This document shows, one piece after another, positions 10,858 through 58,703 of a stretch of DNA of 64,000 bases; the first letter of the stretch is position 1; every line of letters starts with the position of its first letter. Where the stretch lies: contig JAATGJ010000021.1 of the NCBI GenBank assembly GCA_015654695.1, forward strand, positions 1 to 64,000, read 5' to 3'. This DNA is from Chitinophagales bacterium. GTDB taxonomy: Bacteria; Bacteroidota; Bacteroidia; Chitinophagales; Chitinophagaceae. The notes below the pieces were generated by a model. That model ran no database searches, was not told the origin of the DNA, and saw only the letters and a list, made by a program, of their open reading frames with translations. The position numbers and the translations under genes are program-made.

Positions 10858-11020
10858 GATATGGAATGTGAGTAAGATAATATGGCTTGGTCAGCTTCAG
10901 CATTTCATGACATCGCCTGTTGTGTCACTCACTTATAGGTACGTTTTCATGGCGTCAGATTGCTATCAGAAATAGAATTCATTAGTAAATTAGTTTCAAC
11001 TTTCTACCTTTATTATCCTA

Positions 11021-11710
11021 ATGAATAAGATAAATAACAACAGGCTTTTAATTCTTTTATCTGTTATCTGTCTGCTATCTGCTGGTTGTAATTCAAAAAA
11101 AATGAAAGAGATAAATTCTGTTATTGATTTTTATGAGCTGATAGAGGGCACCAAGGTTGTTACGGATAATTTTAGCCGGGCGCAACTTATTACCAAAAAG
11201 CTTACAGGTTTAAGTGAAAAGTCAATTATCAACTTTGAAAAATATCTTCGAAAAGAGCTCATCCATATATGCCACTATAATATTGCTTTACTTTTTGAGC
11301 TAAGTTATCCAAGTCCTGTATTTACTAAAAATGGTAAACCAATTGAATTACCCGGAGAGCCTTATTTATCAACTGACGGTTTCATTTATTTTAGATGCGG
11401 TATCATTCTTCTTGGAAAGGAAGCTGTTAATCAACTTTTGGAAGATCCGAATAATATAATAATGCTAAACAAGTCTTCTGCTGAGATAGATGCAGAAGGG
11501 CTGTTATACTGTGCGACAGATGCACTTAAAAACAAAAGATCAACAATTAATCTTGATGATTCCCTTGACAGATCAGAACATTATGATTGGGGCAGTTACA
11601 GCATTTTAGGGGAAAAAATAAAATGGTATGCCCCCGAAGAAGAGTATCCTGAACTAGTTAAATACTATAACTACAAACGCACAACAATGGAGTTACCGGA
11701 CTCCAAATAA
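11021..11710 (+). CDS. Hypothetical lipoprotein
   Basis: 229 residues with a lipoprotein signal ending LLSAGC (Cys23). The mature protein is soluble and mixed in character, with no recognised motif. It includes FDYELI-like helices and an acidic C-terminus (WYAPEEEYPELVKYYNYK). A weak -7-like TACCTTTA lies just upstream at 11005. It stands alone before a repeat-rich gap. No function can be assigned. Confidence 0.65.
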   Translation: MNKINNNRLLILLSVICLLSAGCNSKKMKEINSVIDFYELIEGTKVVTDNFSRAQLITKKLTGLSEKSIINFEKYLRKELIHICHYNIALLFELSYPSPVFTKNGKPIELPGEPYLSTDGFIYFRCGIILLGKEAVNQLLEDPNNIIMLNKSSAEIDAEGLLYCATDALKNKRSTINLDDSLDRSEHYDWGSYSILGEKIKWYAPEEEYPELVKYYNYKRTTMELPDSK

Positions 11711-12426
11711 TTATTTCTCTTCCGTTGTTCGGGGCCCTTACTTCCTGACGAGTGTCCGGCTACCTTCTATAAGCGGTCCGGGCCAGCAGACTCTGCAAAT
11801 AAAAGGAATCCAACGGCCGGGCTGCTGCCTGCGTTGTCCTGTGCGTTCCGAACTAAAGAAAATAAAACTATAGGTTGTTATCAGATTGCTTCGGCCGGTC
11901 AGCAACTTTCCATTCCATTCAGCAATCTTTTACCGGCCTCGCAATGACGGAGACTCCGGGTGTTGCAAGAGTTGCTAAAGGATTGAAAACCCAAGCTACA
12001 AACCGTTAGTGTCATCTCCACCCCGCAGGGTCTCCGTCATTGCGAGGCTTGTCAGTTGTACCTTCTTAATTAATAAATCTACCGACAAGCCGAAGCAAAC
12101 TAAATCCATCGAAGCGAAAAGATCACTACGAAGAAACCGATACAACAGACTTAAACGAGCCTTAGCAAGCCAGCAGATTGCTTCGGCCAAGGGGCAACCA
12201 ATTCCAATTCATCATCATCGGCCTCGCAATGACGGTGTTCAAGAGAGTTGCAAGAGTTCCTAAAGTATCGTAGACCTAAACCACAGACCAATAGAGTCAC
12301 TCAACACCCCGCAGTGCTTCGGACTACCAGCAGTAACTTCGTATTTTGGCGGCAAACCGATATCATTGCAACTGCGAACAAAACGAAGCAGGAAGCAACA
12401 AACTAAAAATCAGAAAGCCCTATAGC
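11711..12426. repeat. Repeat-rich gap: core repeat, two direct hairpin copies and one inverted copy
   Basis: This 716-bp stretch has no convincing gene. It holds a core repeat (11844-11879, GTTCCG then AAAGAAAATAAAA then GGTTGTT), two direct copies of a roughly 145-bp element (11882-12030 and 12175-12318), and one inverted copy of the hairpin part (12031-12105). Each hairpin has outer arms close to TTGCTTC and TCGCAATGACGG, and inner arms that differ between copies yet still pair: GGCCGGT/ACCGGCC in the first, GGCTTGTC/GACAAGCC in the inverted one. The two direct copies also share a tail with TTGCAAGAGTT and CACCCCGCAG-like sequence. Confidence 0.7.
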
Positions 12427-12726
12427 ATGGAAAAAGGCGGGTACGTTTACATCATGTGCAGTATGAATCATTCTACTCTCTATACCGGCGTCACTTCCGG
12501 CATTGGAGCAAGGGTAAGACAGCATAAAGAAAAATTTTATCCCAATAGCTTCTCCGCAAAGTACAATTGCATAAAACTTGTCTATTACAAATGGTTTGAC
12601 ACCATCATGGAAGCTATCGCCGAAGAGAAAAGAATAAAGGGTGGTAGCCGCAAGAAAAAAGAAATTCTCATCAATAGCATGAATCCTGAATGGAATGACC
12701 TGTATGAACAGATAAGGCTTTTGTGA
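12427..12726 (+). CDS. Small GIY-YIG nuclease superfamily protein
   Basis: A 99-residue single-domain GIY-YIG protein. The diagnostic strands are GYVYIM (5-10) and LYTGVT (18-23), followed by a conserved Arg/His segment (ARVRQHK, 28-34), KYNCIKLVYYKWF and the catalytic-Glu helix AIAEEKRIKGGSRKKKEILI, ending NPEWNDLY. This is the YhbQ/UPF0213-like class, often multi-copy, whose cellular role is not settled; relatives cut or bind DNA using one divalent metal. ATG 12427 matches the family start. It lies 108 bp after a hairpin repeat, an association explored in the findings. Confidence 0.87.
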   Translation: MEKGGYVYIMCSMNHSTLYTGVTSGIGARVRQHKEKFYPNSFSAKYNCIKLVYYKWFDTIMEAIAEEKRIKGGSRKKKEILINSMNPEWNDLYEQIRLL

Positions 12727-12860
12727 TTTCTACCTTTGCGGGTGTTTCGATGAAAGAAGCAGGCCGCGGTTAGCTTTTTTCGTCCACCAGCCGCATGAAT
12801 AGCGGAGTTCAATTATTTATAAAAGTATAGAAGCTAACTACAGATCAGAACGCATCCTGC

Positions 12861-13880
12861 TTATATCAATTGTATTTTTTTCATCACCTCTGCAAATACT
12901 TTATACGAATACACTCTTGCGGCATGGTCATAGATATGTGAAGTTACCATTACTTCGTTCACCTTTGTTTGTTCCAGGAATAACTGTAACTGTTTTTCTA
13001 TCGTGGCAGGGCCGCCAATAAATGAATAGGTCAGCATCTGCTGTACGGCGAAGGCTTCACTTTCATCCAATATAGTCTCCATACTATCAACGGGCGGTTG
13101 CAGCAATTTTCGTTTACCACTAATGACACCTAAAAACAATTGCTGAACCGATGTTGCCAATCGTTGCGCTTCTGCATCTGTATCAGCAGCCACTACATTT
13201 ACACATGCCATTACATAAGGTTCTTTTAACCGGGCGGATGGCTGAAAATTTTGCCTGTACAAACGAATAGCTTCCAAAAAGTAAGTAGGTGCAAAATGAC
13301 TGGCAAAAGCATAAGGCAAACCCATAGCAGCAGCTATCCTAGCACTGTCAGTACTGGAACCTAATACCCATATCGGTATATCAAGACCTTCGCCCGGGAT
13401 GGCCCGCAGGCTACTGGTACTATTTTCTGACGAAAAGAAGTTTTGAAGCTTTTGAATATCACCGGGAAAATTATAGGCCACCCTGAAATTTTCACCACGG
13501 ATCGCCAGTGCGGTTAACTGGTCGGTACCAGGCGCCCTGCCGAGCCCAAGGTCTATGCGACCGGGATATAATGATGCCAGCGTACCAAACTGTTCTGCCA
13601 CAATAAGCGGTGCATGGTTGGGCAACATAATACCACCCGAGCCTACTCGTATAGTTGCAGTCCCTCCTGCTACATAACCAATCAAAACCGATGTAGCCGA
13701 GCTTGCCACACTTGCCATGTTATGATGTTCAGCAAACCAATAACGGGTATAACCCAGTTGCTCTGCTGTTTTTGCCAGTGCAAGACTGTTATGAAAACTA
13801 TCTGAAGGTGTTTTTCCTTCTATAACTGTTGCCAGGTCTAATACTGAATATAAAACAGGGCCGAAATGGTTAACAGGCAT
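12861..13880 (-). CDS. LLM class flavin-dependent oxidoreductase (luciferase-like)
   Basis: A 339-residue single-component bacterial luciferase-like monooxygenase, close to the MsnO8 subgroup. Conserved blocks are [14 protein letters not shown] (substrate/flavin pocket), [37 protein letters not shown] and [27 protein letters not shown]. It uses FMNH2 supplied by a partner reductase; the substrate is unknown. ATG 13880 gives the normal N-terminus ([12 protein letters not shown]); a TTG at 13916 would add 12 unlikely residues. It stands alone. Confidence 0.9.
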
Positions 13881-13993
13881 ATTTGTTTCTTTCTCCAATA
13901 AACGTTCGCTAAGCAATAAAGTTTACTAAACTATCAATAATGTCTTTGGCGAGATGATTGCTTTACATGGCGGTGTTCTTCCGCTCTCCTGAG

Positions 13994-14030
13994 TGTTCCT
14001 GCTTAAAAAAGAAAATAAAACTTTTGTTGT
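13994..14030 (+). repeat. Copy B of the dispersed core repeat
   Basis: GTGTTCCTGCTTAAAAAAGA continues into AAATAAAACTTTTGTTGT, matching the GTTCCG / AAAGAAAATAAAA / GTTGTT pattern of other copies in this region. It lies between the oxidoreductase start and the PIN toxin 3' end. Confidence 0.5.
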
Positions 14031-14051
14031 GCTGAGAATCTGATAGATTTT

Positions 14052-14475
14052 CTATTTATTGTAAATTACCTGAAATTCCTCCGGCGTAAATATTTTAACT
14101 GAAGGAAAAGAAATTTTCTTTAAAATGTTAAAATGCGCATCACGGGTAATGATACATTCCGCACCGGCATTGATAACACAATCAACAAACTTATTGTCAT
14201 CTTCATCAATAATTATCAAGCTCCAGTTGATAAATGGCTGGATAAATCTTACAGAGGGGGATAGTTACCAGGAAATTGGCAATATTATCTGCGATCTCGG
14301 GAGTGGTCTGCTCATCCAATACTTCCCAGTATTCATAAAATATCTCATTACTGATACATAATGTAAATTCACCGGAAATGATTTTATCAAATATCCAGCG
14401 GTAAGGAGAGATTTTGCCTATAGCATTGATGAACACATTAGTATCAACTACGATTTGCACGGCGATGGTGTTCAT
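14052..14475 (-). pseudogene. PIN-domain toxin, frameshifted
   Basis: A VapC-like PIN toxin in two frames. From ATG 14475 the first frame encodes VVDTNVFINAIG (first acidic residue) and EIFYEYWEVL (second), then stops at 14206 after an abnormal tail. The missing half is in the next frame: SVRFIQPFINWSLIIIDEDD, NKFVDCVINAGAECIITRD and AHFNILKK..., ending at a TAG at 14052, with the third and fourth acidic residues in place. The frames join at a run of five Gs (14256-14260); four Gs would restore a continuous protein of about 140 residues. Either the toxin is inactivated, it is phase-variable, or there is a sequencing error. The antitoxin gene overlaps upstream. Confidence 0.85.
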
Positions 14476-14677
14476 TTGACTTTTCGATAATATCCTGCGG
14501 ATCCAATCCTTTCTCTTTGATAAAGCTGTCCATTCCTGAAGTTGCTTTTTCAGCAAAGTATTTTCCCAGCAGCCATTTAATTTCTGTTAACTGTTCATCA
14601 GAAACACCATTTGCGTAGAGCTTTAATAATTCTAACTGAAGGTTACTGAAACTGGGTTTTAAATCTTGTGTTGCCAT
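14444..14677 (-). CDS. Antitoxin partner of the PIN toxin
   Basis: A 77-residue protein upstream of, and overlapping by 32 bp, the PIN toxin reading frame, which is the usual order of an antitoxin-toxin pair. The sequence FSNLQLELLKLYANGVSDEQ then LTEIKWLLGKYFAEKA is the pattern I associate with small antitoxins found with PIN toxins in Bacteroidota. The helical N-terminus is probably for DNA binding or dimerisation, and the charged C-terminus (IIEKSNEHHRRANRS) may bind the toxin. It appears intact although the toxin is frameshifted. Confidence 0.75.
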   Translation of the reverse strand: MATQDLKPSFSNLQLELLKLYANGVSDEQLTEIKWLLGKYFAEKATSGMDSFIKEKGLDPQDIIEKSNEHHRRANRS

Positions 14678-14968
14678 ATTTCAAATTTACAAAAATTATC
14701 GGGTGGCGCAAATAACGGAGAGTCTTCTTCTGCCATTGTCCTCAGTTTTTCGGGCTAAAAAAGAAAATAAAACCACAGGTTGTTGCGCGGAGTTTGCGTC
14801 GGGCTGCTTGCAACTATCTATCAATTCAGCCATCTTTCAGCAGGCCCTGCAATAATGGGGATCATGAAAGAGTCATGAGTTTATATGCATGAAGACTCAA
14901 ACCTGTAAAAGAATTTTCAGGGTTGCAACGTTTTTACCTGGTAAGTTGTCAGCTTTTAAAATTGCTTT
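14678..14968 (+). repeat. Copy C of the dispersed repeat with hairpin
   Basis: This gap contains a long copy (about 14746-14868): core CTAAAAAAGAAAATAAAACC then AGGTTGTTG, followed by a hairpin with outer arms TTGC/GCAA and inner arms GGGCTGCT/AGCAGGCCC (one bulge). The segment between the arms (CAACTATCTATCAATTCAGC) aligns with the copy at 11901-11925. No gene is seen. Confidence 0.6.
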
Positions 14969-15397
14969 ATGAAAAAAATAGTTGTTTTCTTTTGCTTTGG
15001 AATATTACTCCTTTTCATAATTAGTTGCAAAAAAGAAACCCGTGTTGTATCAATTTCTATTGAAGGTTCATGGGAACTCAGGCAAACCAACGGAATGCTT
15101 TCAATTACATATCCTCCCGGCAACGGTCATATAATAAAATTCAACTCCGGCAATTACGAGAGATCTTTGAACGGGCAAATAACGCAAAGCGGCCGCTATA
15201 GGATAGTACAGGATACAACAGTATCTTCAGCAACATGTCTCGTAATTCCGGCCGGTCAATACACGCACAGGATAATCTATGATAATAACATGGCTTCCGA
15301 AAAAGTATTCATAGAATTTTCCGCCAATAAGCTCACCTTTCTTTCCGGTTGCTTTGCTTATGATGCAGGCAGCTTTGCAGACTACGCCAGGCAATAA
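14969..15397 (+). CDS. Small lipocalin-like lipoprotein
   Basis: 142 residues with a lipoprotein signal ending FIISC (Cys20) and a mature domain opening ISIEGSWELRQTNG, a pattern common to Bacteroidota lipocalin-like (DUF-type) lipoproteins. Alternating beta strands follow (IIKFNSGNYERSLNGQ, YTHRIIYDNN, VFIEFSANKLTFLSGC). Probably outer-membrane attached and ligand binding, but this is only fold-level inference. Confidence 0.65.
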   Translation: MKKIVVFFCFGILLLFIISCKKETRVVSISIEGSWELRQTNGMLSITYPPGNGHIIKFNSGNYERSLNGQITQSGRYRIVQDTTVSSATCLVIPAGQYTHRIIYDNNMASEKVFIEFSANKLTFLSGCFAYDAGSFADYARQ

Positions 15398-15475
15398 CGC
15401 GAATGCTGTTTCATGTTGCGTCAGTAATAACGTTTACTTCCGCTGTAAATGTGATCTCACAGATACATCATGTAT

Positions 15476-54075: not shown

Positions 54076-54537
54076 ATGTCCAACACCTATACACAACTCC
54101 ATATTCAATTGGTATTTGCTGTAAAATACCGGGCTGCTCTCATTCAGAAAGGATGGAAAGAAAGATTACACCAATACATTACAGGCATATTTCAAAAGAA
54201 TGAACACAAGATGCTGCAGATAAACAGCATGCCCGACCATATTCATATTTTCATTGGTCTGCGGCCACAACAATCCATATCCGCATTGGTGCAAAACGTA
54301 AAGTCAGAAAGCAGTAAATGGATCAAAGACAATAAACTTTGCAAATCTTCATTTGCCTGGCAGGAAGGCTTTGGCGCATTCTCCTATTCCAAAAGTCACG
54401 TGGACAGGGTGATACGTTATATCCAAAACCAGGAAACCCATCATAAGAAAGAAATATTTTTAGATGAATACCGGCGGATGCTGAAAGCTTTTGAAATTGA
54501 ATATGAGGAGCGATATATTTTTAAAGAACCCGGGTGA
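54076..54537 (+). mobile_element. IS200/RAYT-like Y1 transposase gene
   Basis: 153-residue single-domain HUH transposase of the Y1/TnpA type. The HUH motif is HIH (His55, His57) in SMPDHIHIFIGL; the catalytic Tyr is probably Tyr115 in DRVIRYIQNQETHHKKEIF. Other family positions are TQLHIQLVFAVKYR at the start and GFGAFSYSKSH. It lies 42 bp after the last palindrome of the array, and no second ORF (TnpB) accompanies it. This is the arrangement of REP-associated tyrosine transposases; a classic IS200 remains possible. It nicks single-stranded DNA at hairpins. Confidence 0.9.
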
Positions 54538-55800: not shown

Positions 55801-58371
55801 CTACTTTATCACCAACGCCTTGTCAATTAAAAATTGCAAATTAGCCCTATGAGCTTTTGTTTGTTCATTGGATGAACTGGCTTTGTTTAATTTCTCTTTT
55901 ATGTTCCTAAGTGTACTTAATGCAGCCGCTTTGGACGGATCATCATAACTTCCTCTTAACAAAATTGCTGCTACCGTTTTTACATACTCCGTCTGCAGGT
56001 TTTGCCGGTACAGGTTCACATCGCTTTTGATATCCGCATCAAAGACCATCGCCGTTACATCATTCATGATATTGGCGGAGGAATAGGTATTGCCGTACAA
56101 GGTTGTCCGGTTCGCTCTTGCCAGTGTAAATTCATTTAATATACAATCCAGAATATACGATTGCAGATAATAAACAGTCAGCTCCGGTTTGGGATCTTCA
56201 GAACGACCGAAGAAGTTAAAACCTCTTCTCTGCATTTGCAGGTAAGGGAAAAGATAACTGTCTGCGTCAAATGCATTGGGTGAAAAAATATAAGTATTCA
56301 ACACATCCAGTGCTTTTTTCTGGTATTCTACCGGAACAGGTGTAAATGGCGCTACGGAAGGATTCTGCCCGACAAAACTCCTGTCAATATAAATGCCGCC
56401 TATATACATAGCGATTGGAACAGCCATAGAATAACGCTGGTTGATCAGCATATTGTATTTCCAGCGCATATCAGCATAGGTATTGCCGGGTTTAGCATAT
56501 TTATCTTTTAATTTTCCCATCAGTTCATTCACCAATTTAAAACGGTCAGTGCCGTAAATAACCATATCACTACTCATATCCCAGGTATTCACACGGGGAT
56601 CAATACCGCCACCGATGAAGGCGATATCCGCATCATTGCCGAAAATGAGCTTGGGATCAGTGCTCCGGCTGAGTATTTTCTCCAACCCTGCCTTTTCATT
56701 TGCCGGGGAAAATGGTGTATATCCATACTCAATAGCCCAATTGTCATAAGGACCCGGCCTGGTCGTATAATAATCCGCCTGTTTGCTGTGATCAAGCGCT
56801 GCATTTACTGTAGAATAATCCATCACAGAACCGGTAACGCCATATTGCCTTGTCATATTCTTATCATTCAGTTCAGCGGGACTGAGCATGTGACTTGATT
56901 TCATATTATGATTGAGCCCCATCGTATGGCCCATTTCGTGCAGCACCAGTTCTGTATAGAATTGTTCTTTTAATGTAGCGAGTTCTTCAGGTGATGCGTC
57001 AAAGCATTCTGCAATAACATTGCCGGCTGCATACTGCATCTGCATACCTTTCGCCATATCGCAGTTCATAAAATGGTTGCGCATGGCTATCCATGACTTT
57101 GCATTACTTAATGAAGGATACCCGGTTGGTTTAAATACTTCCTGCTCACTCATGATAGCGCCTAAAAAACCAAAATCAATCGTAATATCCGAGCCGAGTA
57201 TCTGCCCTGTTCTGGGATTAACAAAGCTTGGCCCGATAGCATAACCAAGATCAGAAGAAACCCATCGTATTACATTGTAACGTATATCAGCAGGATCCCA
57301 CGTTGCAGTGTCGGGCATCATCTTCATCACTACTGCATTCTTAAAACCGGCTTTTTCAAATGCTTCATTCCATTTGTTACCTGCATTAAGAACAATTTGT
57401 CTTAACTCAACCGGTGTGGTGTTTTCCACCCACCATACAATGGGCTCTACTGGTTCGCTCATCGCAGCATTCGGATCTTTTTTGACGAGATGCCACCTGT
57501 TGATCATATCATAATAATAAATGGCTTTGGTGGAAGTCATATTATCCATTTCCTGGGTAAAATAACCAACACGGGGATCATCAAAGCGTGGCTTGTAATC
57601 ACTCTTCGGCATCTCTATAAAACTATGCTGCATTTTTACCCGCACATATCGTGCATCGGTGATGGATTTATCACCATAGTTAAGTGGTGTGGGGTTATCA
57701 TACGCCAATGAGACTACCACATCTGTATTATTCGGAAAAGAACGGATCTTTTCATAACCGGATTTGTCTGCCACAAAACTGCCTACGTTAAAGATGGCGC
57801 CGGGAGGAATGTTCGGAGGAAAATTGGGTTTCACCGGGTCTAATTTTTCACTCAGGAATAAACCATCCGCTTTTACCAGGTAACCCAGTGAATCTTCCGC
57901 CCCCACCTTATCCGCATAAAAAACCGCATCACTCACATCTACATTGGCCGCTTTGCTGATCGCATTGGCCGGATCGTAATAAAAATTGGTATTGCATCGT
58001 ATAAAATCCAGCCTGTTGTAATTTTTCGTAATCTTGAATACCCATGTTTCTCTTAGCATATTCTGGTTGAGAAAAAGACTACCGGGGCCGCCCATGGAAA
58101 AACTCTGGTAAATAACTTCTTTGTTCAACTGATCTTTCTTTATATACAGTTGCAGGCTGCCTGACACCGTATCCTGGTAAAGAGTGAACATGCCATCTAC
58201 TTTCTTTTTATCCTTAACAGCATCTTTCCAGAGGGAATCCCGTTTAGCAGCAACAGAATCCACTTTGACTTTTGGTTTTACCGGAACAGGCTTTTTAACC
58301 TGCGCGAAGATGGTACCCGAACAAGTGATGCAAAGCATGATGATGACCGGGATGCAGCGTTTTAATTTCAT
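55801..58371 (-). CDS. Giant secreted zinc metalloprotease (DUF5117/DUF5118 type), paralogue
   Basis: 856 residues with a signal peptide (1-23, GTIFAQ) and a basic Lys/Pro segment. The layout matches the gene at 25176-27710. The N-terminal region has PRVGYFTQEMDN. The catalytic site is LVLHEMGHTMGLNHN (about residue 476), with HExxHxxGxxH ligands, and VMDYSTVNAALDHSK after it. Sequence identity to the first copy is not obvious outside motifs, so the split is old. Substrate unknown. Confidence 0.87.
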   Translation of the reverse strand: MKLKRCIPVIIMLCITCSGTIFAQVKKPVPVKPKVKVDSVAAKRDSLWKDAVKDKKKVDGMFTLYQDTVSGSLQLYIKKDQLNKEVIYQSFSMGGPGSLFLNQNMLRETWVFKITKNYNRLDFIRCNTNFYYDPANAISKAANVDVSDAVFYADKVGAEDSLGYLVKADGLFLSEKLDPVKPNFPPNIPPGAIFNVGSFVADKSGYEKIRSFPNNTDVVVSLAYDNPTPLNYGDKSITDARYVRVKMQHSFIEMPKSDYKPRFDDPRVGYFTQEMDNMTSTKAIYYYDMINRWHLVKKDPNAAMSEPVEPIVWWVENTTPVELRQIVLNAGNKWNEAFEKAGFKNAVVMKMMPDTATWDPADIRYNVIRWVSSDLGYAIGPSFVNPRTGQILGSDITIDFGFLGAIMSEQEVFKPTGYPSLSNAKSWIAMRNHFMNCDMAKGMQMQYAAGNVIAECFDASPEELATLKEQFYTELVLHEMGHTMGLNHNMKSSHMLSPAELNDKNMTRQYGVTGSVMDYSTVNAALDHSKQADYYTTRPGPYDNWAIEYGYTPFSPANEKAGLEKILSRSTDPKLIFGNDADIAFIGGGIDPRVNTWDMSSDMVIYGTDRFKLVNELMGKLKDKYAKPGNTYADMRWKYNMLINQRYSMAVPIAMYIGGIYIDRSFVGQNPSVAPFTPVPVEYQKKALDVLNTYIFSPNAFDADSYLFPYLQMQRRGFNFFGRSEDPKPELTVYYLQSYILDCILNEFTLARANRTTLYGNTYSSANIMNDVTAMVFDADIKSDVNLYRQNLQTEYVKTVAAILLRGSYDDPSKAAALSTLRNIKEKLNKASSSNEQTKAHRANLQFLIDKALVIK

Positions 58372-58703
58372 AACAGTTTATTTTTTTAAATATACAGGAA
58401 AATACAGATTTGTATTTATCAAAAAATAGTTGTCTTGCCGGCAGTGCCTCCATTTGGCTTTTCCCATTCTTGAAACACGACAGGAATAAACACCACAGAT
58501 TTTTGTAGTACTATAAAAAAACCATGATAAAATTAATTAACCCGCAAATGTTTTGGGCTAAGCCCATTTGTAATCTAATTGATTTGCCCCGGCCTTAAGG
58601 CCGGGGCAAATGATAACACTATCTGGGCTGGGCTTTAGCCCCCAACATTTGATCTGATTATTTTAATACAAAATATTTAACGGGAAGGTATGGCTATGAA
58701 TGG
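58372..58703. repeat. Gap with a nested cruciform repeat (58545-58651)
   Basis: No gene in 332 bp. The repeat has a perfect 30-bp palindrome (58582-58611, arms ATTTGCCCCGGCCTT). It is flanked by inverted arms: CAAATGTTTTGGGCTAAGCC at 58545 and GGGCTTTAGCCCCCAACATT at 58630, differing at about three positions. Confidence 0.65.

Follow-up and report, generated by a model that had tools for sequence, protein, structure and literature searches.

A family of small GIY-YIG nuclease genes and the CGTC-tagged hairpin repeats that lie beside its members in many bacterial phyla

The window analysed here, a stretch of 64,000 nucleotides from a Chitinophagales bacterium, carries a small GIY-YIG nuclease gene with a cluster of hairpin repeats ahead of it, and so raises the question of whether the gene and the hairpins belong together and, if they do, what the enzyme might do to them. 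The question has a wider background, as repetitive palindromes with a CGTC tag (CGTC-tagged REPs), among them the dRS3 repeat of Neisseria and the RPE-4/6 repeats of Rickettsia, were described from five phyla without a dedicated transposase, and it was suggested that their REPtrons had vanished or that a variety of transposases mobilise them (Di Nocera et al., 2013; PMC3733652).

Hairpin elements and nuclease gene of the window

Three elements of 57-65 nt, all within 11884-12233, share the layout 5'-CGTC / ATTGC / GA / inner arm ... inner arm' / GAA / GCAA(T)-3', in which the CGTC tag is unpaired, the outer stem (TTGC/GCAA) and the asymmetric GA/GAA internal loop are fixed, and the inner stem varies in sequence from copy to copy, both arms changing together (Table 1). 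The original prediction of three copies with conserved outer arms and differing paired inner arms was thus correct, down to the inner arm sequences that it gave. Mismatch-free CGTCATTGCGAGG occurs at three sites in the whole window, all of them in these elements, and the flank of element 3 resembles that of element 1 (75% over 81 nt). The fourth copy that had been proposed, at 14790-14845, did not stand as such: its tag is gone, its arms are one base out of register and its predicted fold is not better than that of shuffled sequences (z 0.09), and it is a decayed relic or relative.

Table 1. Positions of the hairpin elements and the nuclease gene in the window, and contigs of related doublets elsewhere in the genome.
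Feature	Position	Strand	Description
Element 1	11884-11948	(-)	GTC tag 11946-11948; outer stem TTGC/GCAA; GA/GAA internal loop; inner arms GGCCGGT 11893-11899 / ACCGGCC 11931-11937
Element 2	12036-12099	(+)	anatomy as element 1; inner arms GGCTTGTC / GACAAGCC
Element 3	12177-12233	(-)	shorter inner stem, GGCC/GGCC
Doublet, elements 1 and 2 head-to-head	11884-12099	n/a	spacer ends partly complementary, GGAGACTCCG / CAGGGTCTCC
Fourth element, decayed	14785-14858	(-)	tag lost, arms offset by 1 base
GIY-YIG nuclease gene	12427-12726	(+)	intact, 99 aa, single domain; conserved Y8, Y19, G21, R29, H33, E67, N86
REPIN-like doublets, own genome	contigs C7, C26, C58, C97, C116, C157, C167, C168, C177 (L021, L028, L033, L183-L188)

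The folding energies of single copies were only weakly significant against shuffles (z -1.6, -2.6 and -0.6 for the three of them), and consequently the case for the hairpins rests on covariation. This was scored over 28 distinct arm pairs taken from the genome of the window and one congener, and gave a value of 0.300, compared with 0.133 in shuffles (0/500 as high) and at most 0.130 when the partners were slid out of register. Seven of the nine inner-stem pairs had two-sided changes, against a nearly invariant outer stem and internal loop; the proposal that pairing is kept as the inner arms change is therefore borne out. Rfam covariance models gave no match above the gathering score in window positions 11000-15400.

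The product of the nuclease gene matches PF01541 (E 9e-13), and this match sets its fold. Among 43 sequences Y8, Y19 and R29 were invariant and E67 and N86 nearly so, which places in this domain the two tyrosines, arginine, glutamate and asparagine that mark the GIY-YIG superfamily. Differences from the gene of the congener were distributed over the three codon positions as 18/11/51, and by this comparison the gene looks to be under purifying selection. The nearest solved relatives by sequence, PDB 1zg2 (E 0.007) and 1ywl (E 0.26), are UPF0213 GIY-YIG proteins, a separate family. Small GIY-YIG genes had been expected to be multi-copy, but here the gene is the single member of its family in the genome. 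No clear repeat was seen downstream of it, a point against its partnership with the hairpins.

Repeats were counted genome-wide with arm patterns; a strict full-element pattern, limited by mismatched copies and by its maximum gap of 40, gave only two matches. Elsewhere the genome has about nine doublets, each 170-174 nt long, that combine GTCTTTGCGAGG arms with complementary spacer ends (GGAGACTCCG/CGGAGTCTCC) and share the architecture of the window doublet. These dispersed doublets are not near a nuclease-family gene, and that most are far from the nuclease gene and carry GTCTTT rather than GTCATT counts against a partnership. The same is true of two genomes that contain CGTCATTGCGAG (48 copies in G065 and eight in G070) and no gene of the nuclease family. 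Repeats without an enzyme are expected of non-autonomous leftovers, but they would also fit independent repeats or a different enzyme.

Repeats beside nuclease homologues and their stem sequences

If gene and hairpins are partners, the repeats should accompany the gene in other genomes. Within 99 genomes of the same taxonomic family, all 12 of the closest homologues (L053-L064, from twelve genera) had repeats within 1.5 kb, often inverted with one on each side of the gene, and genomes with close homologues were richer in the repeat (at least three copies in 10/13, compared with 13/86 of the others; Fisher p 1.4e-5). The flanks of 30 homologues contained 159 palindromes, where shuffled sequences gave an expectation of 3.8. 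Remoter homologues have other outer stems (TG, CA, TT, GT, CT, CC, TC and GC), which differ by locus and are still paired, and plasmid and megaplasmid records extend the link to Alpha-, Beta- and Gammaproteobacteria, a cyanobacterium and Spirosoma. The Neisseria homologue (L083) sits in an array of CGTCATTCCCGCG...GGGAATC, which is of the dRS3 type. Enrichment near GIY-YIG genes, as the original prediction would have it, holds for this family but not for the eight other GIY-YIG matches in the genome of the window, none of which has such repeats nearby; a link to GIY-YIG genes in general is thereby ruled out.

A broader sample consisted of 80 homologues from about 20 phyla, obtained by a contig scan with alignment A4 (A3 being too diverse) and picked without regard to repeats, and their surroundings were examined for the palindrome GTCAT-NNN...NNN-AT. 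The palindrome was found within 700 bp of the gene for 74 homologues, and on both sides for 56. Its density was 3.08/kb near the gene compared with 0.36/kb beyond 2 kb, falling steeply from 5.85/kb in the first 250 bp to about 0.2/kb past 500 bp, with a median distance of 43 bp on the upstream side and 32 bp on the downstream side. The tags of the nearest copies mostly point outward from the gene (47/59 upstream, 46/67 downstream). When every combination of tag and stem start was scored without prior choice, GTC|AT had the highest enrichment near the nuclease family genes (9.9-fold), and 324 of 533 5' arms found their own partner arm, as against 85 with permuted triplets. Chance hairpins are excluded by this partner-arm result together with the excess of palindromes over shuffles, the enrichment of the tag and the covariation.

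The stem itself appears to be matched to the enzyme. The nearest copies on either side of the gene had the same stem triplet at 37 of 52 loci (14% by chance), and when the triplets were mapped on a tree of 124 nucleases, 34 changes were required, compared with 64 when the labels were shuffled freely (minimum 57) and 59.5 when shuffling was confined to each phylum (minimum 52). One group, with a TCC stem, mixes Chloroflexota, Omnitrophota, Bacteroidota, Calditrichota, Nitrospirota and Pseudomonadota, and another, with TGC, brings together Cyanobacteriota, Nitrospirota and the clade of the window. By this measure the stem triplet follows the nuclease tree across phyla, a statement that is statistical because the tree has few well supported forks, and it is what an enzyme that reads sequence and its own target would give. 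Comparison of these loci therefore establishes the association, the preferred orientation, the stem common to both sides of the gene and the tracking of the enzyme phylogeny by the stem.

Gain, loss or relocation of the gene

In Azospirillum lipoferum the gap between sufB and sufC measures 618 bp and contains a REP pair, the gene and a second REP pair, whereas in A. oryzae, A. ramasamyi and strain B510 the gap is 88-130 bp and has neither gene nor REP. The gltA-lpxB interval of S. meliloti Ak57 holds a nuclease gene and a truncated second copy amid REPs, and at the same site in Sinorhizobium K101 the REPs are present and the gene is absent. In the congener of the window species the nuclease gene lies in a different neighbourhood; when an empty site corresponding to the window locus was sought in congener G087, synteny ended at smc and a clean junction was not found. 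As read from the sequences, these three comparisons show gain, loss or relocation, which does not in itself give the mechanism, and since neither a target-site duplication nor an exact target junction was found at any of the compared loci, mobilisation is unproven. The presence and absence seen in Azospirillum and Sinorhizobium may also bear on a homing endonuclease cassette, which would cut a gene-less site and be copied into it.

A nuclease-family gene also lies within the suf region of Shinella sp. PSBB067 (near 1539146 of NZ_CP069303.1), as in A. lipoferum, and the two may possibly be independent insertions in the same operon.

Candidate functions and relation to known REP systems

The window elements resemble CGTC-tagged REPs in the unpaired CGTC tag (with a TGTC variant), a stem starting with AT, head-to-head dimers and intergenic dispersal (PMC3733652); the unpaired 5' tag is found in all three elements, and the dimers are represented by elements 1 and 2 and the nine doublets of the genome. 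They differ from the classic form, which has an uninterrupted 8-9-bp stem and a 4-5-nt loop, in having an outer stem of 4-5 bp, the GA/GAA internal loop, a variable inner stem of 4-9 bp and a loop of tens of nucleotides; the short form does occur at other members of the nuclease family. RAYT/GTAG-REP systems (REPtrons, REPINs) are similar in that an enzyme gene is flanked by its own tagged palindromes and gene-less doublets are dispersed, but at the window locus the enzyme is a GIY-YIG protein and not an HUH tyrosine (Y1) transposase, and the tag is CGTC and not GTAG.

There is also a likeness to small single-domain GIY-YIG enzymes each with its own repeat. Chenal et al. reportedly described, in Nature Communications in 2025, GIY-YIG 'Ssn' nucleases with thousands of homologues, whose cuts in single-stranded DNA fall at specific repeats, the one from Neisseria being said to act on a repeat and on transformation. 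That study presumably covers the nuclease family of the window. Here too the gene is accompanied by its own repeated sequence, the Neisseria homologue belongs to the family tested, and cutting is predicted. A literature search for GIY-YIG proteins linked to REPs found no paper, the Chenal et al. study lying outside the scope of that search; what may be new is the equation of the nuclease family with CGTC REPs, the co-variation of stem and enzyme across phyla, and mobilisation.

We consider it probable, with good confidence, that the product of the window gene is a stand-alone, sequence-specific GIY-YIG nuclease, and that the hairpins, a variant of the CGTC-tagged REPs, are its own recognition sites. 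The original prediction that the nuclease could act on the hairpins is strongly supported as to a partnership, and their cutting, mobilisation or processing by the enzyme is inferred. In single-stranded or extruded DNA the nuclease would recognise the GTC tag, left unpaired, together with the outer stem and fixed internal loop, and would then nick or cut near the tag of its own REP, with pairing but not sequence being required of the inner stem. Less certainly, repair or recombination at cut REPs might carry the REP-gene-REP cassette, and also gene-less REPs and doublets, to new sites, and such spread would make the system a parallel to RAYT/GTAG-REP built on an unrelated enzyme. More tentatively, and at somewhat under even confidence, the family could serve CGTC-tagged REPs throughout bacteria as their dedicated enzyme, in a second, HUH-independent REP-mobilising system whose outer-stem sequence would be set by the nuclease lineage and whose cassette would spread through cuts at its own hairpins. 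A single family of tiny intact enzymes beside CGTC-type repeats in about twenty phyla is a candidate for their missing enzyme, and the finding may identify the enzyme behind a class of repeats that is widespread in bacteria. The many natural pairs of enzyme and stem make the question directly testable, and they are a large set from which to learn how so small a nuclease, with about 95 residues, recognises a hairpin.

The main alternative is that the nuclease recognises and cuts the REPs, and by doing so controls DNA uptake or recombination (natural transformation, genome shaping) and not the spread of the repeats. This we regard as possible and rather doubtful. The position of the Neisseria homologue inside a dRS3 array would suit it, as would the effect on transformation in Neisseria that the 2025 Ssn study reportedly describes, but cassette-like gene units ending in repeats, presence and absence between sister species, and the joint passage of an enzyme and its stem type from phylum to phylum are features more often associated with a mobile unit. 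One role is in any case compatible with the other.

It is unlikely that RAYT or other transposases move the REPs and that the GIY-YIG gene is a passenger landing in REP clusters. The genome does have 14 Y1_Tnp matches, one of which (L043, on contig C26) has two GTCTTT elements within 1.5 kb, and other elements are known to insert into REPs (PMC1525189). However, the remaining RAYT-like loci are without such elements within 1.5 kb, so that a RAYT was rejected as the partner of the repeats, no RAYT flanked by CGTC repeats was reported by Di Nocera et al. (PMC3733652), and a passenger would explain neither the tracking of the GIY-YIG tree by the triplet nor the match on both sides of the gene. 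That the hairpins work in transcription or as RNA, for instance as terminators or mRNA stabilisers, with no tie to the gene is highly improbable, for although they are intergenic, the lack of an Rfam match, the weak folding of single copies, the fixed unpaired tag and the inverted copies that in many phyla flank the gene on either side speak against it, and flank enrichment, the stem-tree match and the steep distance decay already make it hard to keep.

Two of the dispersed doublets lie near Y1_Tnp (RAYT-like) genes, at about 0.6 and 2 kb (that at L043 on C26, and one on C97, 56048-56114 relative to 58090-58431), which is possibly chance or possibly a second partner enzyme. The window also contains a RAYT-like Y1 transposase gene at 54088-54432 (+), the best match in the genome to PF01797 (E 8e-30), and the 1.5 kb around it lack a CGTC element. 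Three intergenic sites in the window (11826-11871, 13976-14021 and 14728-14773) carry copies of a short motif that ends in AAAGAAAATAAAAC, two of which directly precede elements 1 and 4. Finally, a PIN-domain toxin gene at 14052-14677 (-) looks to be split by a frameshift into ORFs 14206-14556 and 14052-14219, and a small ORF adjoining it may be its antitoxin.
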